64,000 nucleotides of DNA from Spirochaetales bacterium (GTDB lineage: Bacteria; Spirochaetota; Spirochaetia; DSM-2461): positions 1 through 64,000 of the forward strand of contig JAFGXR010000041.1 in assembly GCA_016936555.1 (NCBI GenBank). Reading direction: 5' to 3'. Shown here piece by piece: positions 54,297 through 64,000 of this stretch. Numbering within the stretch: the first letter of the stretch is position 1; each line of letters starts with the position of its first letter. The translations under genes were made by a program, and so were the position numbers. Below the pieces are notes generated by a model. It had not been told where the DNA came from and searched no databases. It saw only the letters and a program-made list of their open reading frames with translations.

Positions 54297-55556
54297 ATGA
54301 GCGACAGCGAGCTGATTTTTATTCCGGACCGGAAGGAGCTGGAAGAGCAATACACCCGATACCGCGATAAGTTCGAGCATCTCCTTTATGATTTGCAGCA
54401 TGATTTCAGAAGTGAATTAAAAAAAATATCACTCCATGTCACATTGAAAAACAGAGTAAAAGACTTTGACAGTGTCTATCTGAAAGTCCTTGCGAAAAAT
54501 ATCGATTTTGACAAAGCTTTATTTACCCTGACCGATATTATGGGTCTCAGGGTCATATGCCCTTTTATGGAAGATGTGAAAACGGTTGAGGCTTTTATCC
54601 GCAATTATTGTACTGTTATAGAAGAGGAAAGAAAGGGGGAAAACCTATCTTTTCGCGAGTTCGGTTACGAGTCCATACATTTCCTTATCGAAATTCCCGA
54701 GAAACTCAGAAGAAAATACAGTGTGGATAATAGTTTCTGCTGTGAAGTTCAGATCCGCACCATTCTGCAGGATGCCTGGGCGGAAGTTGAGCATGAGCTT
54801 GTATATAAGGCGGAATTTTCTCCCTATGATGAACCTCTTAAGAGAAAACTGGCTGCTTTGAATGCGAATCTCAGTCTTTCCGATATCATATTCCAGGAGA
54901 TCAGGGATTATCAGAGGCAGCTTCACACAGAACTGAACAAAAGGCGTTTTGCATTCAACCGGAGAGTGGAGCATGAAGCGGAAGAACTCTTCAATGAACA
55001 TTTGGATTATTCGGAAATAACACGGAGAAAATATCCCGATCTCGATAAAAACAAATTCCGTAAACAAAGCCCGATTGAGATGGGAAATATAGATAATATG
55101 CTCCTGGAAGCTTTATATGCGCATAATGAAGGGGACTTCGATCAGGCTATTTCAATTTACACTCAAATTCTGAATATGAAACCACAGGATTATGTCAAAC
55201 CGGTTATTTATGTACATCGTGGGATGGCTTATTTCGGGAAGTCTCTCTATGACCTGGCGGAAAAGGATTTCAGTGAAGCGCTGAAAAGGGAGCCGGAAAA
55301 CGATAAGACTTATTATTACAGAGGGATTGTCCATAGTATTAATGAAAATTATACAAAAGCATTGAATGATTTTAACAGAAGCCTTTCCATTAATCCTTAT
55401 CAGTCTTATGTCTTTTACAGCAGAGCCCAGGTTTACTTTCATATTGGTGATTATCCGGCGGCGATGAACGACTGCCGTTCTGCTTTATCGCTAAAACCCG
55501 ATTATCCTGAAGCAAATCATTTCAGAGAACTCATTCAGTCAAAAATGAATTTTTAG
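54297..55556 (+). CDS. RelA/SpoT-type alarmone synthetase domain with TPR tail
   Basis: A 419-residue cytosolic protein. Residues ~20-205 are a RelA/SpoT synthetase domain: KNRVKDFDSVYLK, DIMGLRVIC, GYESIH and EVQIRT...AWAEVEHELVYK. No HD hydrolase, TGS or ACT domain is present, so it is a small-alarmone-synthetase type. From ~265 there are about four TPR repeats (EALYAHNEGDFDQAISIYTQIL, YVHRGMAYFGKSLYDLAEKDF, YYYRGIVHSINENYTKALNDF). The TPRs probably bring partner control to (p)ppGpp synthesis. No partner is evident in the next gene. Confidence 0.85.
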   Translation: MSDSELIFIPDRKELEEQYTRYRDKFEHLLYDLQHDFRSELKKISLHVTLKNRVKDFDSVYLKVLAKNIDFDKALFTLTDIMGLRVICPFMEDVKTVEAFIRNYCTVIEEERKGENLSFREFGYESIHFLIEIPEKLRRKYSVDNSFCCEVQIRTILQDAWAEVEHELVYKAEFSPYDEPLKRKLAALNANLSLSDIIFQEIRDYQRQLHTELNKRRFAFNRRVEHEAEELFNEHLDYSEITRRKYPDLDKNKFRKQSPIEMGNIDNMLLEALYAHNEGDFDQAISIYTQILNMKPQDYVKPVIYVHRGMAYFGKSLYDLAEKDFSEALKREPENDKTYYYRGIVHSINENYTKALNDFNRSLSINPYQSYVFYSRAQVYFHIGDYPAAMNDCRSALSLKPDYPEANHFRELIQSKMNF

Positions 55557-57275: not shown

Positions 57276-58607
57276 CTATTTCCCATATTTGTTCATCCAG
57301 TTGCTTAAAGTCTGATAATTGGAAAAGCCGAGCATTTTTGCCGCTTTGGATTTTTTCCCCTCGCAGATTTCAAGGGCTTCCATAATATAGTGCATCGCAA
57401 CATCACCCAGGACATCGTTGAGATTAAAATTTTCTCCCATGGGAATGTCCCGCCATTGATTCAAACGGCTTTCCTGCCTGTCCAGTGAGTTTCTGACCAG
57501 ATCTTCCGTAATGACCGAAGAGCTTTCACCGGATACTCTGGTGACCAGAGAATTCAGTTCATTGAGATTCCCGGGCCAGTTATGACGTTCCAGATACGCC
57601 AGTGCTTTGTCGGAAAAAACCGATGCGGCGCCGTTTCTTTTAAGGATCATTTCTATAATTTGTGGAATTTCATGCTTTCTGGCCCTAAGTGGCTCAAGAA
57701 GAATCAGGTTTCTGCTGATCAAATAGTAAAAACGGCGGTTCAGTTTTTCCAGATCTGCTCTATCCCTGATATTGGCGGTTGCAATAATCTGTATACCGTT
57801 AAACTCGGCCAGCTGTTCCTGAATATAGAAAGGCAGTATTTCAATATTGAAGAAGAGAAAAATCCCCGTATCGCCTTCATTGATCAGTCTGGATATTTCA
57901 GCTGTTTTTTCCTCTATGGCAGCGGGGTTTACCGATCTGAAATTTATCGAGTGATAGGACAGGGATAGATTTTTGACGGCTTCTCTGATGAATGAGGATT
58001 TTCCTGTTCCCTCCTCACCCCAGACCAGAAGATTCCCTCCTTTTTCTATTGCCTGACTGATTCTCACGGATATGCTTTTTTCTTCCGGCAGTTTTGCGGC
58101 TTTCACTGTGAAAATTTTATTTTCCTTGATAGATTCGGGTTTTGACCGGGGAGGCATTGTCTGCCTGACTTCGGCAAAGTGATTATCCGGTTTCTGCTCA
58201 ACAGGCTCATAATCAATCATATGGGGATATATAATAATTCCCTTGTGAATGGTTTTATCGACTATTTCCCACAGGTTTATCTGAAGGGTGTTCTCTCCGG
58301 GAAGATAAAGAAATGATGCATGGCCTTCCTCGGCCAGAAGAATGTATTTGATAATGCTTTCAATTTTACCCAGAATATATTTTTCCGATCCCTTTTCAAG
58401 GGTGACGGCTTTTACGTCCCTATCGAGCTTGTCTGCAATCCAGTTTTTAAAGGAGATTGACAGTTCCCTGTCCTGATTGGTCAGAAGAAAAATCCGGTCT
58501 ACACGATTCTTTTCGGAAATCCGGGTAATATCCAGATCTTCATAATTGTCTACTTTCTGATAATCAAGATGTTCATTGCGGATAAATGAGATAAGAATAT
58601 TTTTCAT
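57276..58607 (-). CDS. CARF/RtcR-like sensor with degenerate AAA+ and Fis-type HTH
   Basis: A 443-residue regulator. Residues 1-130 form an alpha/beta domain (ILISFI...LDY, RIFLLTNQD, FLYLPGENTLQINLWEIV) resembling the CARF-like sensor of RtcR in order and motif placement. Residues ~175-375 form an AAA+ core with Walker A WGEEGTGKSS, but the Walker B aspartate is lost (FLFFNIEIL), the GAFTGA loop is absent and WPGNVREL is WPGNLNEL, so it cannot be a normal sigma-54 activator. The end has a Fis-type HTH (KKSKAAKMLGFSNYQTLSNW). The ligand may be a cyclic or linear oligonucleotide; unproven. Divergent from the phosphatase-kinase operon. TATAAT ends 8 bases before the ATG with no ribosome site. 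Confidence 0.65.
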   Translation of the reverse strand: MKNILISFIRNEHLDYQKVDNYEDLDITRISEKNRVDRIFLLTNQDRELSISFKNWIADKLDRDVKAVTLEKGSEKYILGKIESIIKYILLAEEGHASFLYLPGENTLQINLWEIVDKTIHKGIIIYPHMIDYEPVEQKPDNHFAEVRQTMPPRSKPESIKENKIFTVKAAKLPEEKSISVRISQAIEKGGNLLVWGEEGTGKSSFIREAVKNLSLSYHSINFRSVNPAAIEEKTAEISRLINEGDTGIFLFFNIEILPFYIQEQLAEFNGIQIIATANIRDRADLEKLNRRFYYLISRNLILLEPLRARKHEIPQIIEMILKRNGAASVFSDKALAYLERHNWPGNLNELNSLVTRVSGESSSVITEDLVRNSLDRQESRLNQWRDIPMGENFNLNDVLGDVAMHYIMEALEICEGKKSKAAKMLGFSNYQTLSNWMNKYGK

Positions 58608-58615
58608 ATAAAAGA

Positions 58616-58755
58616 ATTATATGCAAAATTGGGGATCTGGTACACTTCTTTTTTGCTGATGGAGTACTGTGCCGTTTGGCACCATTTCTCGGGTAGGGGA
58701 AGATTTTTCCTTCTGTTACAGATAAAGTGAATAAGTCAGGGAAATGGATTATACT
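58616..58755. promoter_or_regulatory. Divergent control region with inverted repeat
   Basis: On the minus strand TATAAT lies at 58616-58621, 8 bases before the regulator ATG. On the plus strand TATACT lies at 58750-58755, with a weak GTGAAT 17 bases earlier. Between them, at 58669-58682, is the perfect inverted repeat GTGCC-gttt-GGCAC, a candidate binding site for the divergent regulator. Confidence 0.5.
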
Positions 58756-58791
58756 GATAGAAATCCAAAGATAAACTTACAGGAGTATCCA

Positions 58792-59319
58792 ATGGCCGGA
58801 ATTTATGATTCACTGGAAAAAAATATACAGGAGCATCTGCAGATGATCCTTCAGAGCAGCGGTATGGAACAGAGCGAGACTTCTCTGGAAACCCTTGCTT
58901 CCGCCTGGAAAGAAAAGGAAAGTTCCTTTTCCAAACAGATAGACCGAATGGATATGGAGGAGACTGAGGAGATCTCCGCTGATGAAAGTTGCGGTTTTAT
59001 GGTTCTGACTTACTCGGGATCTCTTCTCGGCTCGGGACCTCTTACTGATGAAGGAAGAACTGTTCTGTATGTAAGTGTCGGTATGCGCAAAGACGTCCCG
59101 GAAAAAGCTGAAAAATCCGGCAGTAGACTGAAAGGCCCGATTCACAAAGGAGAACCGGTTGAATTTTCGGTAGGACCTATCAAGCAGAGTTCTCCGGCAT
59201 ACCGTATCGCCAGGATAACCGATAAGATTGCCATAGAAGAACAGAGCGAAAAAATCTCGGAAGCGACACTGATTATCGCCGAAGAATTTATCGATGTAAA
59301 TAAAACAATAATTCTATAG
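58792..59319 (+). CDS. Unknown protein, first gene of the phospho-signalling operon
   Basis: A 175-residue protein from ATG 58792, chosen for CAGGAG seven bases upstream; an in-frame ATG lies 16 codons earlier without a ribosome site. No motif is recognised. The N-terminal ~70 residues are helical and acidic; the rest is beta-rich (GFMVLTYSGSLLGSGPL, TVLYVSVGM, EPVEFSVGPI). It is 8 bases before the phosphatase gene, so it probably works with that system. No signal peptide or membrane segment. Confidence 0.6.
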   Translation: MAGIYDSLEKNIQEHLQMILQSSGMEQSETSLETLASAWKEKESSFSKQIDRMDMEETEEISADESCGFMVLTYSGSLLGSGPLTDEGRTVLYVSVGMRKDVPEKAEKSGSRLKGPIHKGEPVEFSVGPIKQSSPAYRIARITDKIAIEEQSEKISEATLIIAEEFIDVNKTIIL

Positions 59320-59327
59320 AAGTACTT

Positions 59328-60314
59328 ATGAAGGAACAGATTACAAAAATATTGAAGAGAACCAGTGTTCCCGATCCTCTCGAATATCTTAAAAAAGTTG
59401 AAGATTGTCTGGAGGTCCTGACATCCGAGGAAGCTCCCGTCAGGCCGCGCCGTACCGATGGCGGTCCGGGAGGAATAATCAATCTGCTAAAGGGAATTCC
59501 CACTATAATCGTACCGGATTTGCATGCACGTATGAATCTCATCGGTTCTCTCGTCAATCTGCAAAGTGAAGAGGGTGGTTTTTATGAGTTGATGGCGGAA
59601 GAGAAATTGCAGGTTCTTTGCGTAGGAGATGGTTTCCATCGCGAGCTGGATGCGAAAGAGAGATGGCAGGATGCCTTTCGAGAATATGAAAAAGGTTTTA
59701 AAAAGCATGTGGCTATGGATGAGGAAATGAGGGAAAGCCTTGGTCTTATGGAAATGATAATGGAACTGAAATGCGCTTTTCCGCGTAATTTTCATTTTCT
59801 CAAAGGAAATCATGAAAATATCGGAAACGAGGAGGGGGGAGGGAACCACCCCTTCAGGAAATTCGCTTATGAAGGGGATATGGTCAGGACCTGGGTTCTT
59901 CAGTTTATGGGAGAGGAGTTTCTCAACAAGTATTCTGTTTTTGAGAAATTACTTCCTCTTCTGGCAATCGGGGAGAATTTTCTCGTTTCTCATGCCGAAC
60001 CTCTCCGTTTTTTTTCAGAAGAGGAGGTCACAGACTATACTGGCGAAGCGGTTCACGGTCTGACATGGACAGCAAATGGAGAAGCGGAAGAGGGCGGCGT
60101 AAGACAGATGTTGGATATTTATCTTCCAGAAGATGTTTCAAAAGGGGCTCTCTACCTCGGAGGACATCGAATCATTACGGAAAAATACAGATTGAGGGCT
60201 GGAGGAGATTTTGTACAGATTCATAATCCATGGAAGTATCAGATCGTCTTTCTCAAGCCCGGCTGTCCGATAGATCTGGAAAAGGATATTATTGAAATAC
60301 CGGGGAAAAACTAA
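59328..60314 (+). CDS. PPP-type metallophosphoesterase
   Basis: A 328-residue calcineurin-like phosphatase. Metal motifs: PDLHAR (63-68, for the usual GDxHG), GDGFHRE (100-106, for GDxVDRG; the second Asp is His) and GNHEN (160-164), followed by SHAEP and GGHR with later His ligands. Such enzymes hydrolyse phospho-serine/threonine. The altered second motif may change activity or specificity. Its stop overlaps the kinase ATG by one base, so it is a natural opponent of the kinase. No membrane segment; acts in the cytosol. Confidence 0.82.
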   Translation: MKEQITKILKRTSVPDPLEYLKKVEDCLEVLTSEEAPVRPRRTDGGPGGIINLLKGIPTIIVPDLHARMNLIGSLVNLQSEEGGFYELMAEEKLQVLCVGDGFHRELDAKERWQDAFREYEKGFKKHVAMDEEMRESLGLMEMIMELKCAFPRNFHFLKGNHENIGNEEGGGNHPFRKFAYEGDMVRTWVLQFMGEEFLNKYSVFEKLLPLLAIGENFLVSHAEPLRFFSEEEVTDYTGEAVHGLTWTANGEAEEGGVRQMLDIYLPEDVSKGALYLGGHRIITEKYRLRAGGDFVQIHNPWKYQIVFLKPGCPIDLEKDIIEIPGKN

Positions 60315-62185
60315 TGGCAAAAATACCGGCAAAAATCGGAAAATACGAAATCACTAACAAAATCGCGGAAGGCGGTATGGGGGCCGTATACAAAGGCATC
60401 CATCCGACACTGAACAAAGAGGTCATTCTTAAAAAGCTGACTCTCAGCGGCGATGAACATATCAGCGAGCGCTTCAAACGGGAAGCCCGTATTATGATGG
60501 ATTTTAAAAATGACAACATAGTCGATGTATATGATCATTTCAAAGCCGGAGGATCCTATTTCATCGTTCTTGAATATGTAGACGGAATCGCCCTTGATCA
60601 ACTGATTAAGAAAGAGCGTTATCTTCCCAATGATACGGCTCTGCTGATATTTCTTGAAGCCTGTAAAGCACTGAAATATGCCCATGATAAAAATGTGATT
60701 CACCGGGATATTAAGCCGGGAAACATTCTTTTATCAAAAGAGGGCGAAGTTAAACTTGTCGACTTCGGGATCGCATCAATAGCCGATGACGACGAGACGA
60801 ACCTCACGCGAGACGGGATGACTCTGGGCACTCCTTCCTATATGGCTCCGGAGCAATTCAATAACTCGAAATCAGTTGATATCAGGGCAGATATTTACTC
60901 TATGGGAGTTATGCTCTATGAAATGGTAACCGGTAAAAAACCTTATCCCGGAAATTATTCTCCTGAAACTCTGGCAAAAATTCAGAAAGGGAAATATCTA
61001 TCTCCGAAAAAGCATAATCCGTCAATATCTCCTTTAATCGGTAAGATTATCGGTAAGTGCATGAAGGCCAGAGCGGACCGGCGGTATAAAAACCTGGGAA
61101 AAATCATTCTAACTCTGGAAAAATATTTCCGTAAAAGAAACCGCCAGAATGCCAGAAATATACTTATTGCGAAAATAACAGGAGAGACTATTGAAATCCC
61201 ACCGGTAAAAAAGCCGGTTTTAAAAAGAATTCTGATATTCCTGCTTATTCTGATTCTTGCAGGTGCTGGCGGGTATGCCCTTTACAGCAGCGGGTTTCAT
61301 TATGAAATACTGAACAGTTCTCAATACGGCGCTCTTCGTATACAGGTCAAAGTTCCCAAGTCTGGAAAGGATCCCGATGACATTTATCTGAAAGCATATC
61401 TGTTTATTGATGATGACCGGGAAATCCCTTCGGTTGATTACAATATCGGATTCTCAATGAAGGAGGAAAGCGATTCTTTCTACATATTTGAATCAAACAA
61501 AATCTATCAACCAGCTGGAGATTACAGAATCAAAATCAAATGTGAAAGCGAGTTGTTCTGGGGATCTTTCGGACTTAATTCAGTCAGCGATACAATAATC
61601 CTGACCGGAGGTTCCAAAATTAATCTTTTCTCTTTCACAAGCGGCAGTCCTCAACCGGTTCCCCTGACAATCAGATCCAGGGTTCTGGATTACTCCTCTG
61701 GAAGGGACATCTCTGAAAAGGTTCAGATACTTATAAATGAGGGGGGCAAATGGATTGAGTCGCCGCGGCTGAAAGATCCAATGATGTCCGGTCGGGTATA
61801 TAAAGTCCGTTTTGCTGCAGACAGATACGAGACAAAAGATTTCAGTATGAGAGTCGATACATATCAATCCGTACTTGATCTGACCGTCAGTCTTCTTCCG
61901 GAACCGGGAAAAGTGACTCTCAGTTCTGGGGATTCGGGACTGAAAGTGAATATTGCCGCTGAAAGTTCGAACTGGATCAGCAGGACCGTACTCCTGACAG
62001 AGGAGGGAGAGGTTCTCGAACTCTATCCGGGTAATTATACCCTCGCATTCATGGGGAAAAGTGCCGAAGAATTGTTAGTTTCCATTTCAATTGACAGGAC
62101 TTCGGATTTCAATATTAAAGCGTTCTTAAATAAAGAAGAAAAAACAATAGAAATAGAAGGATTACCCGATGAAAATAATAGGTAA
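60314..62185 (+). CDS. Membrane Hanks-type serine/threonine protein kinase
   Basis: A 623-residue kinase. The Gly loop AEGGMGAVYKG, Lys40, HRDIKPGN (His130-Arg-Asp132), DFG (150-152) and APE (178-180) are intact, so it should be active. One membrane helix lies at ~306-325, then ~295 residues of extracytoplasmic beta-rich sequence that may be a sensor; these contain repeated motifs (DYRIKIKCESELFWG, VYKVRFAADRYETKD). It lacks PASTA repeats. Translationally coupled to the phosphatase before it and overlaps the FHA-like gene by 17 bases. Confidence 0.92.
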   Translation: MAKIPAKIGKYEITNKIAEGGMGAVYKGIHPTLNKEVILKKLTLSGDEHISERFKREARIMMDFKNDNIVDVYDHFKAGGSYFIVLEYVDGIALDQLIKKERYLPNDTALLIFLEACKALKYAHDKNVIHRDIKPGNILLSKEGEVKLVDFGIASIADDDETNLTRDGMTLGTPSYMAPEQFNNSKSVDIRADIYSMGVMLYEMVTGKKPYPGNYSPETLAKIQKGKYLSPKKHNPSISPLIGKIIGKCMKARADRRYKNLGKIILTLEKYFRKRNRQNARNILIAKITGETIEIPPVKKPVLKRILIFLLILILAGAGGYALYSSGFHYEILNSSQYGALRIQVKVPKSGKDPDDIYLKAYLFIDDDREIPSVDYNIGFSMKEESDSFYIFESNKIYQPAGDYRIKIKCESELFWGSFGLNSVSDTIILTGGSKINLFSFTSGSPQPVPLTIRSRVLDYSSGRDISEKVQILINEGGKWIESPRLKDPMMSGRVYKVRFAADRYETKDFSMRVDTYQSVLDLTVSLLPEPGKVTLSSGDSGLKVNIAAESSNWISRTVLLTEEGEVLELYPGNYTLAFMGKSAEELLVSISIDRTSDFNIKAFLNKEEKTIEIEGLPDENNR

Positions 62186-63041
62186 AAACACAATTACCGG
62201 CCTTTTGGGGCTGGCTGGAGGTCTGGCCTCATGGCCTTTCCTGGAACTCGTTCTATGGAAGCAGGGGGCATTTCCTTCTTATCTTCTCTTTTTTCTGACA
62301 GCTACAGTGATCCCCGGTTTATTTATCGCCATGTTTCTTGGAGCCTCCGAGGGCGTTATCGGCAGAAACTGGAGTCGGGCTGTAAAAGGAGCTCTTATCG
62401 GATTAGTCTCGGGAACCATTGGCGGTTTGGTTGGTGGTTTGTCTGGTCAGATTCTCTTAAGCAGAATACTCGTCTGGTTTCCCGGACGGGGAGATGTCCT
62501 TGAAACAGCAGCCAGAACCTTAGCCTGGGCTCTTGTGGGAATCTTTATAGGGCTGAGCGATGGAATACGTTCTGTTTCCCTCAGAAAAATCGGAGTAGGT
62601 GCTCTCGGGGGAATGGTCGGAGGTTCACTCGGAGGATTTCTGCTTGAAATGCTCTCACGGTCATTTGCCAGTTCTATACCGCGTCTTGCAGGTCTGGTCC
62701 TTATGGGGCTCATGATAGGTGTTTTTTATTCTCTTCTGGACAGAAAATACTCATTCGGGGTTCTTCGTGTTTTAAACGGAAGCCAGGCGGGAAAAAAATA
62801 CAGGATAAACCAGAAAAAAATGGATCTGGGCAGTGGAAACAGAACTATCATTTTCAATGATTATGAAGGCGTCGATGACAAAGAAATCGAACTGAGAGTT
62901 GACCGCGGACAGATAACCGTTATTGACGATAAAATGAACAGTAAATTATTTGTCAACGATAAAGCGACAATAAAAACCACTTTAAAATACGGCGATGTCA
63001 TAAAAGCCGGAACTGTAAAAATGCTGCTGGAGGCGGAATGA
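62169..63041 (+). CDS. Polytopic membrane protein with FHA-like domain
   Basis: A 290-residue protein. Residues ~5-200 contain about five membrane segments with Gly-rich zippers (GTIGGLVGGLSG, GALGGMVGGSLGG). The C-terminal ~90 residues resemble an FHA fold (VLRVLNGSQAGKKYRINQ, then LFVNDKATIKTTLKYGDVIKAG), but the canonical GR and SRxH residues that read phospho-threonine are missing, so binding to a phosphoprotein is uncertain. Genetic coupling to the kinase (17-base overlap) and the vWA gene (ATGA overlap) suggests they form one complex. Confidence 0.65.
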   Translation: MKIIGKNTITGLLGLAGGLASWPFLELVLWKQGAFPSYLLFFLTATVIPGLFIAMFLGASEGVIGRNWSRAVKGALIGLVSGTIGGLVGGLSGQILLSRILVWFPGRGDVLETAARTLAWALVGIFIGLSDGIRSVSLRKIGVGALGGMVGGSLGGFLLEMLSRSFASSIPRLAGLVLMGLMIGVFYSLLDRKYSFGVLRVLNGSQAGKKYRINQKKMDLGSGNRTIIFNDYEGVDDKEIELRVDRGQITVIDDKMNSKLFVNDKATIKTTLKYGDVIKAGTVKMLLEAE

Positions 63042-64000
63042 AAAAACTTATCTTTATAACATCAATCTGGCTGTTGAGTTTTATTTCTGCGGCGGCCGAG
63101 CAGATTTCAATATCCGGTGTCGATACATCGGGGCTTCTCTTTAGCGGAACAGTCTCCCTCTATGTCAATATCACAGATAATCAGGGGGAAACCGTAACCG
63201 ACCTCAGACAGGAGGATCTGGCAGTTTCCGAATCTCTTAATGGCAGGGATTATACACCTGTTGAAATCGTGAATTTTTCAGAGGAAGTCAATGAAGACAA
63301 GGGGATCAGTTTTCTTCTTCTTGTGGATAATTCCGGCTCCATGTACGATCGGTTGGATGGCAAAGCCACAGATAAAGACGAAGAGAGAAGAATCAATTCA
63401 GCTGTAAAAGCGATATATGCACTTATCCAGTCCATGCAGGGTAGTGAAGATAAGACGGGAATAGCCCTCTTCAATACATTTTACAAAGAACTGGCTCCCG
63501 TAGGGTCAAACCGGAACAGTGTTATCGAAGCCATGCAGATGATAGAGAAACCGGGTAAGGATGAATCGTTTACGGAATTGAATGCAGCAGTGATAAGTGC
63601 CGCCGGTAAATTTACCAGAGAACGGGGACGTAAAATTATAATCGTTCTGTCCGACGGTGAGAATTATCCCTACAAGCCTGTTAGAGGTGAAGACAGCCCT
63701 CAGTTCGGTTCCTCACTTTATTCTACCGATGATATGATAAGAGAACTGAAAAGAAACAGCACGACTCTATACGGAATCAATTTCGGGACAACAAGAGATC
63801 GCGACCTGGAGAAAGCTGTTATCAGTTCCGGAGGATTTCTTTTTGAAGCGGGGACTAGAGAAGAGCTGGAAGCTGTGTACAAAACAATTCGGGAGCGGAT
63901 TCTAAGTGAATACCTTATTGAATACAGATCCGGAACTGAATATGCCGAACAGAAATATGTCAAGGCGGAAATCCCCGGATCGGGAGCAGCTTCCGGTCCT
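63038..64000 (+). CDS. Exported von Willebrand factor A-domain protein (partial, 3' end cut by window)
   Basis: At least 321 residues; no stop before the window end. ATG 63038 overlaps the previous stop (ATGA) and GGAGG lies 4 bases before it. A signal peptide (~1-20, ending AAA) is followed by a ~70-residue VTDLRQEDLAVSE module seen in VWFA-related proteins, then a vWA domain with an intact MIDAS (LLLVDNSGSM, then LSDGENYPY). It is placed outside the cytoplasm and is probably a metal-dependent adhesion or scaffold part of the kinase/phosphatase system. Strand and frame are unambiguous. Confidence 0.85.
   Translation, partial: MKKLIFITSIWLLSFISAAAEQISISGVDTSGLLFSGTVSLYVNITDNQGETVTDLRQEDLAVSESLNGRDYTPVEIVNFSEEVNEDKGISFLLLVDNSGSMYDRLDGKATDKDEERRINSAVKAIYALIQSMQGSEDKTGIALFNTFYKELAPVGSNRNSVIEAMQMIEKPGKDESFTELNAAVISAAGKFTRERGRKIIIVLSDGENYPYKPVRGEDSPQFGSSLYSTDDMIRELKRNSTTLYGINFGTTRDRDLEKAVISSGGFLFEAGTREELEAVYKTIRERILSEYLIEYRSGTEYAEQKYVKAEIPGSGAASGP

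Follow-up and report, generated by a model that had tools for sequence, protein, structure and literature searches.

In this work we describe a five-gene membrane phosphorylation cassette, which is conserved in the phylum Spirochaetota and lies, in the studied genome, next to a divergently oriented regulator gene. The window, i.e. the whole stretch of DNA analysed, comprises nucleotides 1-64000 of contig JAFGXR010000041.1 of a Spirochaetales bacterium (contig C83 of genome G000, 65,601 bases). The operon at its right end encodes, in order, a protein with a domain lacking any database match (UNK), a phosphatase (PPP), a Ser/Thr kinase (STK), a membrane FHA-like protein and a vWA protein, and the divergent regulator is called REG. 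The operon was compared with 26 genomes of the family, four of which form the genus (G000, its sister genome G001, G002 and G003), and with 393 genomes sampled from the phylum. We take the conserved system to consist of the five operon genes together, in many genera, with a protein in which UNK is joined to an HU-type domain (UNK-HU); UNK is its key new part, and REG is a genus-level addition.

Conservation and products of the operon

All five genes were found in the same order at 48 of 65 informative spirochaete loci (loci were counted where enough flanking DNA was available, with most duplicate records removed), which argues that the set did not come together by chance. The other 17 loci held PPP and the kinase only (13), UNK and PPP only (1) or PPP alone (3). 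The kinase gene follows PPP at 83 of 90 loci, and UNK precedes it at 60 of 77. PPP itself is present in 24/26 family genomes and in 96/393 of the phylum sample; its carriers include Breznakiella homolactica, Brucepastera parasyntrophica, a Sediminispirochaeta sp., a Treponema sp. and many spirochaete metagenome-assembled genomes, as well as three records labelled as non-spirochaete, whose labels may be wrong. Breznakiella homolactica (L172) is a cultured relative in which the operon is present. A first-pass annotation of the window had suggested looking for the six genes, REG included, in other spirochaetes: the five operon genes do recur together, and the regulator is confined to one genus. 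In G002 we also observed a UNK-PPP pair with no adjoining kinase gene (L065:10627-12462, contig C31), the phosphatase of which is 47% identical to that of the window.

The five genes are co-directional on the forward strand and tightly packed, with a gap of 8 nt between UNK and PPP followed by overlaps of 1, 17 and 4 nt; the open reading frames are as described in the first-pass annotation and have support from Pfam. UNK (58792-59319) encodes a 175-residue domain. Its reading frame as annotated begins at 58744, yet the start is probably at 58792, because an ACAGGAG precedes the ATG there and homologues begin at the same position. PPP (59328-60314) encodes a divergent PPP-family Ser/Thr phosphatase matching Metallophos with 21.7 bits (cut-off 21.5), and PP1 chains are its closest sequences in the PDB. 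Its motifs read PDLHAR, GDGFHxE, GNHEN, HAEP and GGHR, thus the first is PDLH instead of GDxH and GDxVDRG is replaced by GDGFHxE. The putative metal ligands D64, H66, D101, N161, H162, H222 and H280 are invariant in all 109 aligned sequences, and on the metal-binding motifs of that family, namely GDxH, GD, GNHE and two further His, the protein qualifies as a PPP phosphatase. The Hanks-type kinase STK (60314-62185; Pkinase, 181 bits) retains the catalytic Lys, HRD, DFG and APE in 95/95 sequences and has one transmembrane helix (residues 306-324), behind which lies an extracytoplasmic C-terminal part. PASTA repeats, the mark of PknB/StkP kinases, were not matched in Pfam, and the score against NF033483 (273.6 bits, below the cut-off of 450) comes from residues 9-296 only. 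With catalytic residues intact in both enzymes, the writer and the eraser of phosphorylation claimed in the first-pass annotation are both present.

The reader proposed there fared worse. The fourth gene (62169-63041) encodes a polytopic membrane protein with at least three hydrophobic segments and a cytoplasmic YscD-type C-terminus (Yop-YscD_cpl, 42.8 bits), in which the FHA fold signature is retained. To bind phosphothreonine an FHA domain needs the Arg that follows a Gly in its first loop, as well as the Ser of SxxH; in the membrane protein the Arg occupies the GR position in only 7 of 67 sequences and the Ser is not conserved, and the FHA-like domain at the end of the vWA protein is degenerate at these contacts as well. 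Because the phosphothreonine contacts are absent, a role as scaffold suits the FHA-like domains of the operon better than one as reader. The vWA gene (63038-64426, the window ending at 64000) encodes 462 residues matching VWA_2 with 47.2 bits, with weak matches to TIGR03436 and BatA-like models. In its metal-ion-dependent adhesion site (MIDAS), DxSGS and the D are kept in 63/63 sequences and the T in 62/63. The protein begins with 17 hydrophobic residues ending in AAA-EQ, a signal-peptide-like stretch consistent with the predicted export, and a C-terminal, cytoplasmic FHA-like domain follows its single transmembrane helix.

Reading past 64 kb, as the first-pass annotation had advised, showed that the operon continues: the vWA gene is followed by a PUR-like gene (64518-64970; DUF3276, 62.7 bits) and an OmpA-like gene starting at 65038. 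In G001 the product of the latter's counterpart is a membrane protein combining an OmpA domain with a long GSTT repeat. Transmembrane proteins of this GSTT-repeat/OmpA kind were noticed after the PUR-like gene at L008:8038-8601 and L029:5055-6272, and the repeat length may vary.

The UNK domain and a possible link to DNA

The first-pass annotation had left the first gene as unknown. This holds inasmuch as UNK matches nothing in Pfam or NCBIfam and has no sequence relative in the PDB, and the annotation passed over the UNK domain and its HU fusions, the most telling part of the system. The AlphaFold2 model of UNK (predicted local distance difference test, pLDDT, 89.9) comprises eight strands, with helices at the N-terminus and a long helix at the C-terminus. 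With thresholds of E<0.1 for Foldseek and Z>=5 for VIA-align, comparison of this model with the PDB gave nothing below E 0.17 in the former and nothing at Z>=5 in the latter. UNK is thus a domain family without a database match, and a weak or missing fold match of a predicted model is no proof of a new fold.

At 28 of 77 loci the gene that runs divergently from UNK has a product of more than 250 residues bearing a second UNK domain. The divergent copy which was tested (L117) carries an HU/IHF domain (PF00216, 58.8 bits, cut-off 22.4), and the other divergent paralogues shown have, by eye, the same C-terminus. Since the UNK domain is common to the first gene of the operon and to the divergent UNK-HU, the cassette is tied to DNA, and the occupancy of this slot in many other genera suggests a phospho-signalling cassette with DNA binding as its output. 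G000 holds three UNK proteins: the operon copy, one on contig C52 and an unlinked UNK-HU on contig C76. The copy on C52 (UNK2, 178 residues, L252:8068-9271) is transcribed divergently from a gene for a canonical FHA domain, and the UNK-HU on C76 (276 residues, L253:7059-7889) lies away from the operon. The divergent pair of UNK2 and canonical FHA gene was also found in G001, G005 and G013, so in four family genomes UNK proteins stand repeatedly beside FHA readers; at other loci small canonical FHA genes adjoin UNK-HU.

We read the whole as a membrane-spanning Ser/Thr phospho-signalling cassette, and in outline we give this reading an even chance. The state of the envelope or surface would be sensed outside the cytoplasm, by the vWA protein and the ectodomain of the kinase, and how far UNK-domain proteins are phosphorylated would depend on the kinase and the PPP phosphatase. 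Scaffolding of the complex may fall to the membrane FHA-like protein and to the terminal FHA-like domain of the vWA protein, and separate canonical FHA proteins encoded beside UNK paralogues may read phosphothreonine. UNK-HU would then relay the phosphorylation state to DNA. Three points weigh against such a pathway. Phosphorylation of UNK is something we infer from gene association only; in this family UNK-HU is unlinked to the operon; and Treponema-like genomes have PPP-STK without the UNK, FHA-like and vWA genes (the loci with the pair alone include Treponema- and Treponemataceae-labelled records), therefore the pair has a role of its own.

The strongest competing explanation, which we regard as unlikely, is that of an envelope-assembly cassette: the vWA and membrane FHA-like proteins would build or clamp an envelope structure, comparable to YscD-like rings or to Bat/vWA systems, with the kinase and phosphatase switching assembly and the DNA-binding partners being incidental. 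It would account for the FHA-like domain, whose best match is the cytoplasmic domain of YscD and which has kept its fold and lost the canonical contacts, for the exported MIDAS-bearing vWA protein with its weak TIGR03436 and BatA-like matches, and for the OmpA-like gene downstream in this genus. However, the divergent UNK-HU, which shares its UNK domain with the operon at 28/77 loci and so ties the cassette to DNA, is difficult to reconcile with incidental partners, and Treponema-like genomes have kept just the enzyme pair and none of the proposed structural components.

The divergent regulator REG

In the genus studied UNK-HU is encoded elsewhere, and the divergent slot is held by REG (57276-58607, reverse strand). 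The protein comprises a CARF-like N-terminus (residues 1-132), a degenerate NtrC-type AAA+ domain and a Fis-type helix-turn-helix at the C-terminus. It was found in all four genus genomes and in none of the 22 other family genomes (4/26). The synteny of regulator and operon, on which the first-pass annotation had staked its proposal, extends beyond this genome: REG adjoins and diverges from UNK in G000 and also in G001 and G003, which are two other species of the genus, and the contig of G002 ends inside REG. A profile of the REG N-terminus searched against the 393 phylum genomes gave a high score for G000 itself only; beyond the genus there were three matches scoring near 20 bits, which we treated as chance.

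The N-terminus was modelled against CARF structures, as had been recommended, and a CARF-like fold is likely in the resulting AlphaFold2 model of low confidence. In VIA-align CARF proteins fill 14 of the top 15 rows, the best being Csm6 (Z 10.2, root-mean-square deviation 2.9 over 112 residues), and in Foldseek four of the top seven matches are chains of a single CARF entry, Cam1. A PG..T.QI..W motif is, by eye, common to REG and spirochaete RtcR-like proteins. This assignment is burdened by the model itself (pLDDT 50.3, built from three sequences), by non-CARF Rossmann folds of near score (UGT71AP2 at Z 9.4, with USP also nearly as high) and by the profile-profile comparison with RtcR N-termini in hhalign, where no match was obtained with a shallow profile (effective number of sequences 1.3). 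Because UGT71AP2 reaches Z 9.4, we consider the CARF assignment likely and not proven.

RtcR is a bacterial enhancer-binding protein (bEBP) with a CARF domain (PMC4012209), and REG resembles this type in its probably CARF-like N-terminus, NtrC-type AAA+ domain and Fis helix-turn-helix. The two differ in the motor. In an alignment with two GAFTGA-bearing spirochaete CARF-bEBPs (L217 and L221), all four REG copies have kept Walker A, have LN or FN in place of the Walker B DE and lack the GAFTGA segment; the second Arg finger is not conserved either. In Pfam AAA_lid_14 and HTH_8 score above their cut-offs and Sigma54_activat below, and PF06956 (RtcR), to which other spirochaete proteins match, gave no match to REG. 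The loss of sigma-54 activation features noted in the first-pass annotation is thereby borne out. It is hence very improbable that REG is an active, merely diverged RtcR-type sigma-54 activator responding to RNA damage: the AAA lid and Fis domain above cut-off, the CARF-like N-terminus and a full RtcR-like CARF-bEBP in the same genome speak for it, but the lack of GAFTGA and of the Walker B DE in every genus member, of any conserved -24/-12 element on visual inspection of the intergenic region and of rtcA/rtcB-type genes recognised among the neighbours examined all speak against it. The RtcR-like protein just mentioned (518 residues with GAFTGA, contig C95 of G000, L221:358-1914) is preceded by a gene for 357 residues with a coiled-coil look. 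We give just as little credence to the idea that the CARF-like domain senses the cyclic oligoadenylate of a type III CRISPR system and couples phage infection to the kinase cassette: the nearest structural matches of the REG N-terminus are indeed the CARF domains of Csm6, Can2, Cdn1 and Cam1, but a search for the Cas10 palm in the four genus genomes yielded weak matches of at most 31 bits, mostly to the GGDEF-like half of a model with which E. coli also scores, and for this reason the link has no support.

REG is instead most likely an ordinary ligand-switched regulator of this locus, joining a CARF-like sensor to a dead NtrC-type AAA+ domain and a Fis helix-turn-helix. A candidate operator at 58599-58629 is formed by the inverted repeat ATTTTTCATATAA-N5-TTATATGCAAAAT, with 13-bp arms complementary at 12 of 13 positions and a 5-bp spacer, which spans a TATAAT and, 8 nt downstream of it, the start codon of REG. 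A comparable dyad arose in 4 of 3000 dinucleotide shuffles; the repeat has also been retained in G001 and, in a less perfect form, in G003. In each of the two genomes tested, G000 and G001, its perfect core CATATAA-N5-TTATATG has a single occurrence, which lies at REG and therefore points to autoregulation and local control and not to a regulon. Most likely REG would bind the dyad at its own start codon and control this locus only. When the intergenic region was scanned for promoters and terminators, nothing above chance emerged. Because the TATAAT stands only 8 nt before the ATG (58605-58623) and no Shine-Dalgarno sequence is visible, REG may be leaderless. At 54297-55556 of the window a RelA_SpoT synthetase domain is fused to TPR repeats, in a gene that is syntenic with REG in G001, G002 and G003.

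Known systems and significance

No description of this operon was found in a literature search that covered few subscription papers. The first-pass annotation had known of no description of this precise set, which agrees with this result, and had named type VI secretion and TerY-P systems as its relatives, missing a nearer one. In the Sulfolobus Arn network FHA, vWA, Hanks kinase and PP2A proteins make up a phosphorylation-controlled complex governing the archaellum genes (PMC7472852). The nearest working analogue of the spirochaete cassette would be this network of ArnA (FHA), ArnB (vWA), ArnC/ArnD (Hanks kinases) and PP2A; since that set forms one regulatory complex, such a set can work in this way. 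All four kinds of protein, i.e. FHA, vWA, Hanks kinase and PPP-family phosphatase, are also encoded here. The Arn proteins are archaeal and have no known UNK-domain partner. ArnA and ArnB are cytoplasmic and the Arn FHA domain is canonical, whereas in spirochaetes one operon holds all the genes, the kinase sits in the membrane, as do the FHA-like and vWA proteins, export is predicted for the vWA protein and the FHA domains are degenerate.

The PpkA/PppA/Fha module of type VI secretion likewise has a kinase, a phosphatase and an FHA protein encoded together, and the TerY-P triad (TerY vWA, kinase, PP2C) combines vWA, kinase and phosphatase. PppA and the TerY-P phosphatase are PP2C enzymes, and the TerY vWA protein is cytoplasmic. 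The spirochaete phosphatase, in contrast, matches Metallophos only and is of the PPP family. From the type VI module the cassette differs further by an FHA domain without phosphothreonine contacts and by its additional vWA and UNK genes, and from the triad by the predicted export of its vWA protein and by the FHA-like and UNK proteins.

Hanks-kinase signalling of spirochaetes is little described in the literature searched, and this conserved operon lends itself directly to experiments, since it supplies a kinase, a phosphatase, a candidate sensor and, in many genera, DNA binding as a fused output. With UNK comes a new domain family, modelled with confidence and without a match among known structures, and REG makes it possible to ask whether a CARF sensor can serve as a plain transcription factor when its AAA+ domain is dead. 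A bolder version of the signalling reading may be entertained, tentatively: a phylum-wide pathway built on a new UNK domain with a fold not in the PDB, in which the exported vWA sensor and the kinase/PPP pair would control UNK-HU nucleoid proteins, and into which one genus would have recruited a CARF-type nucleotide sensor as driver of the locus. If this were true, the state of the envelope would be written directly onto an HU-like chromatin protein.

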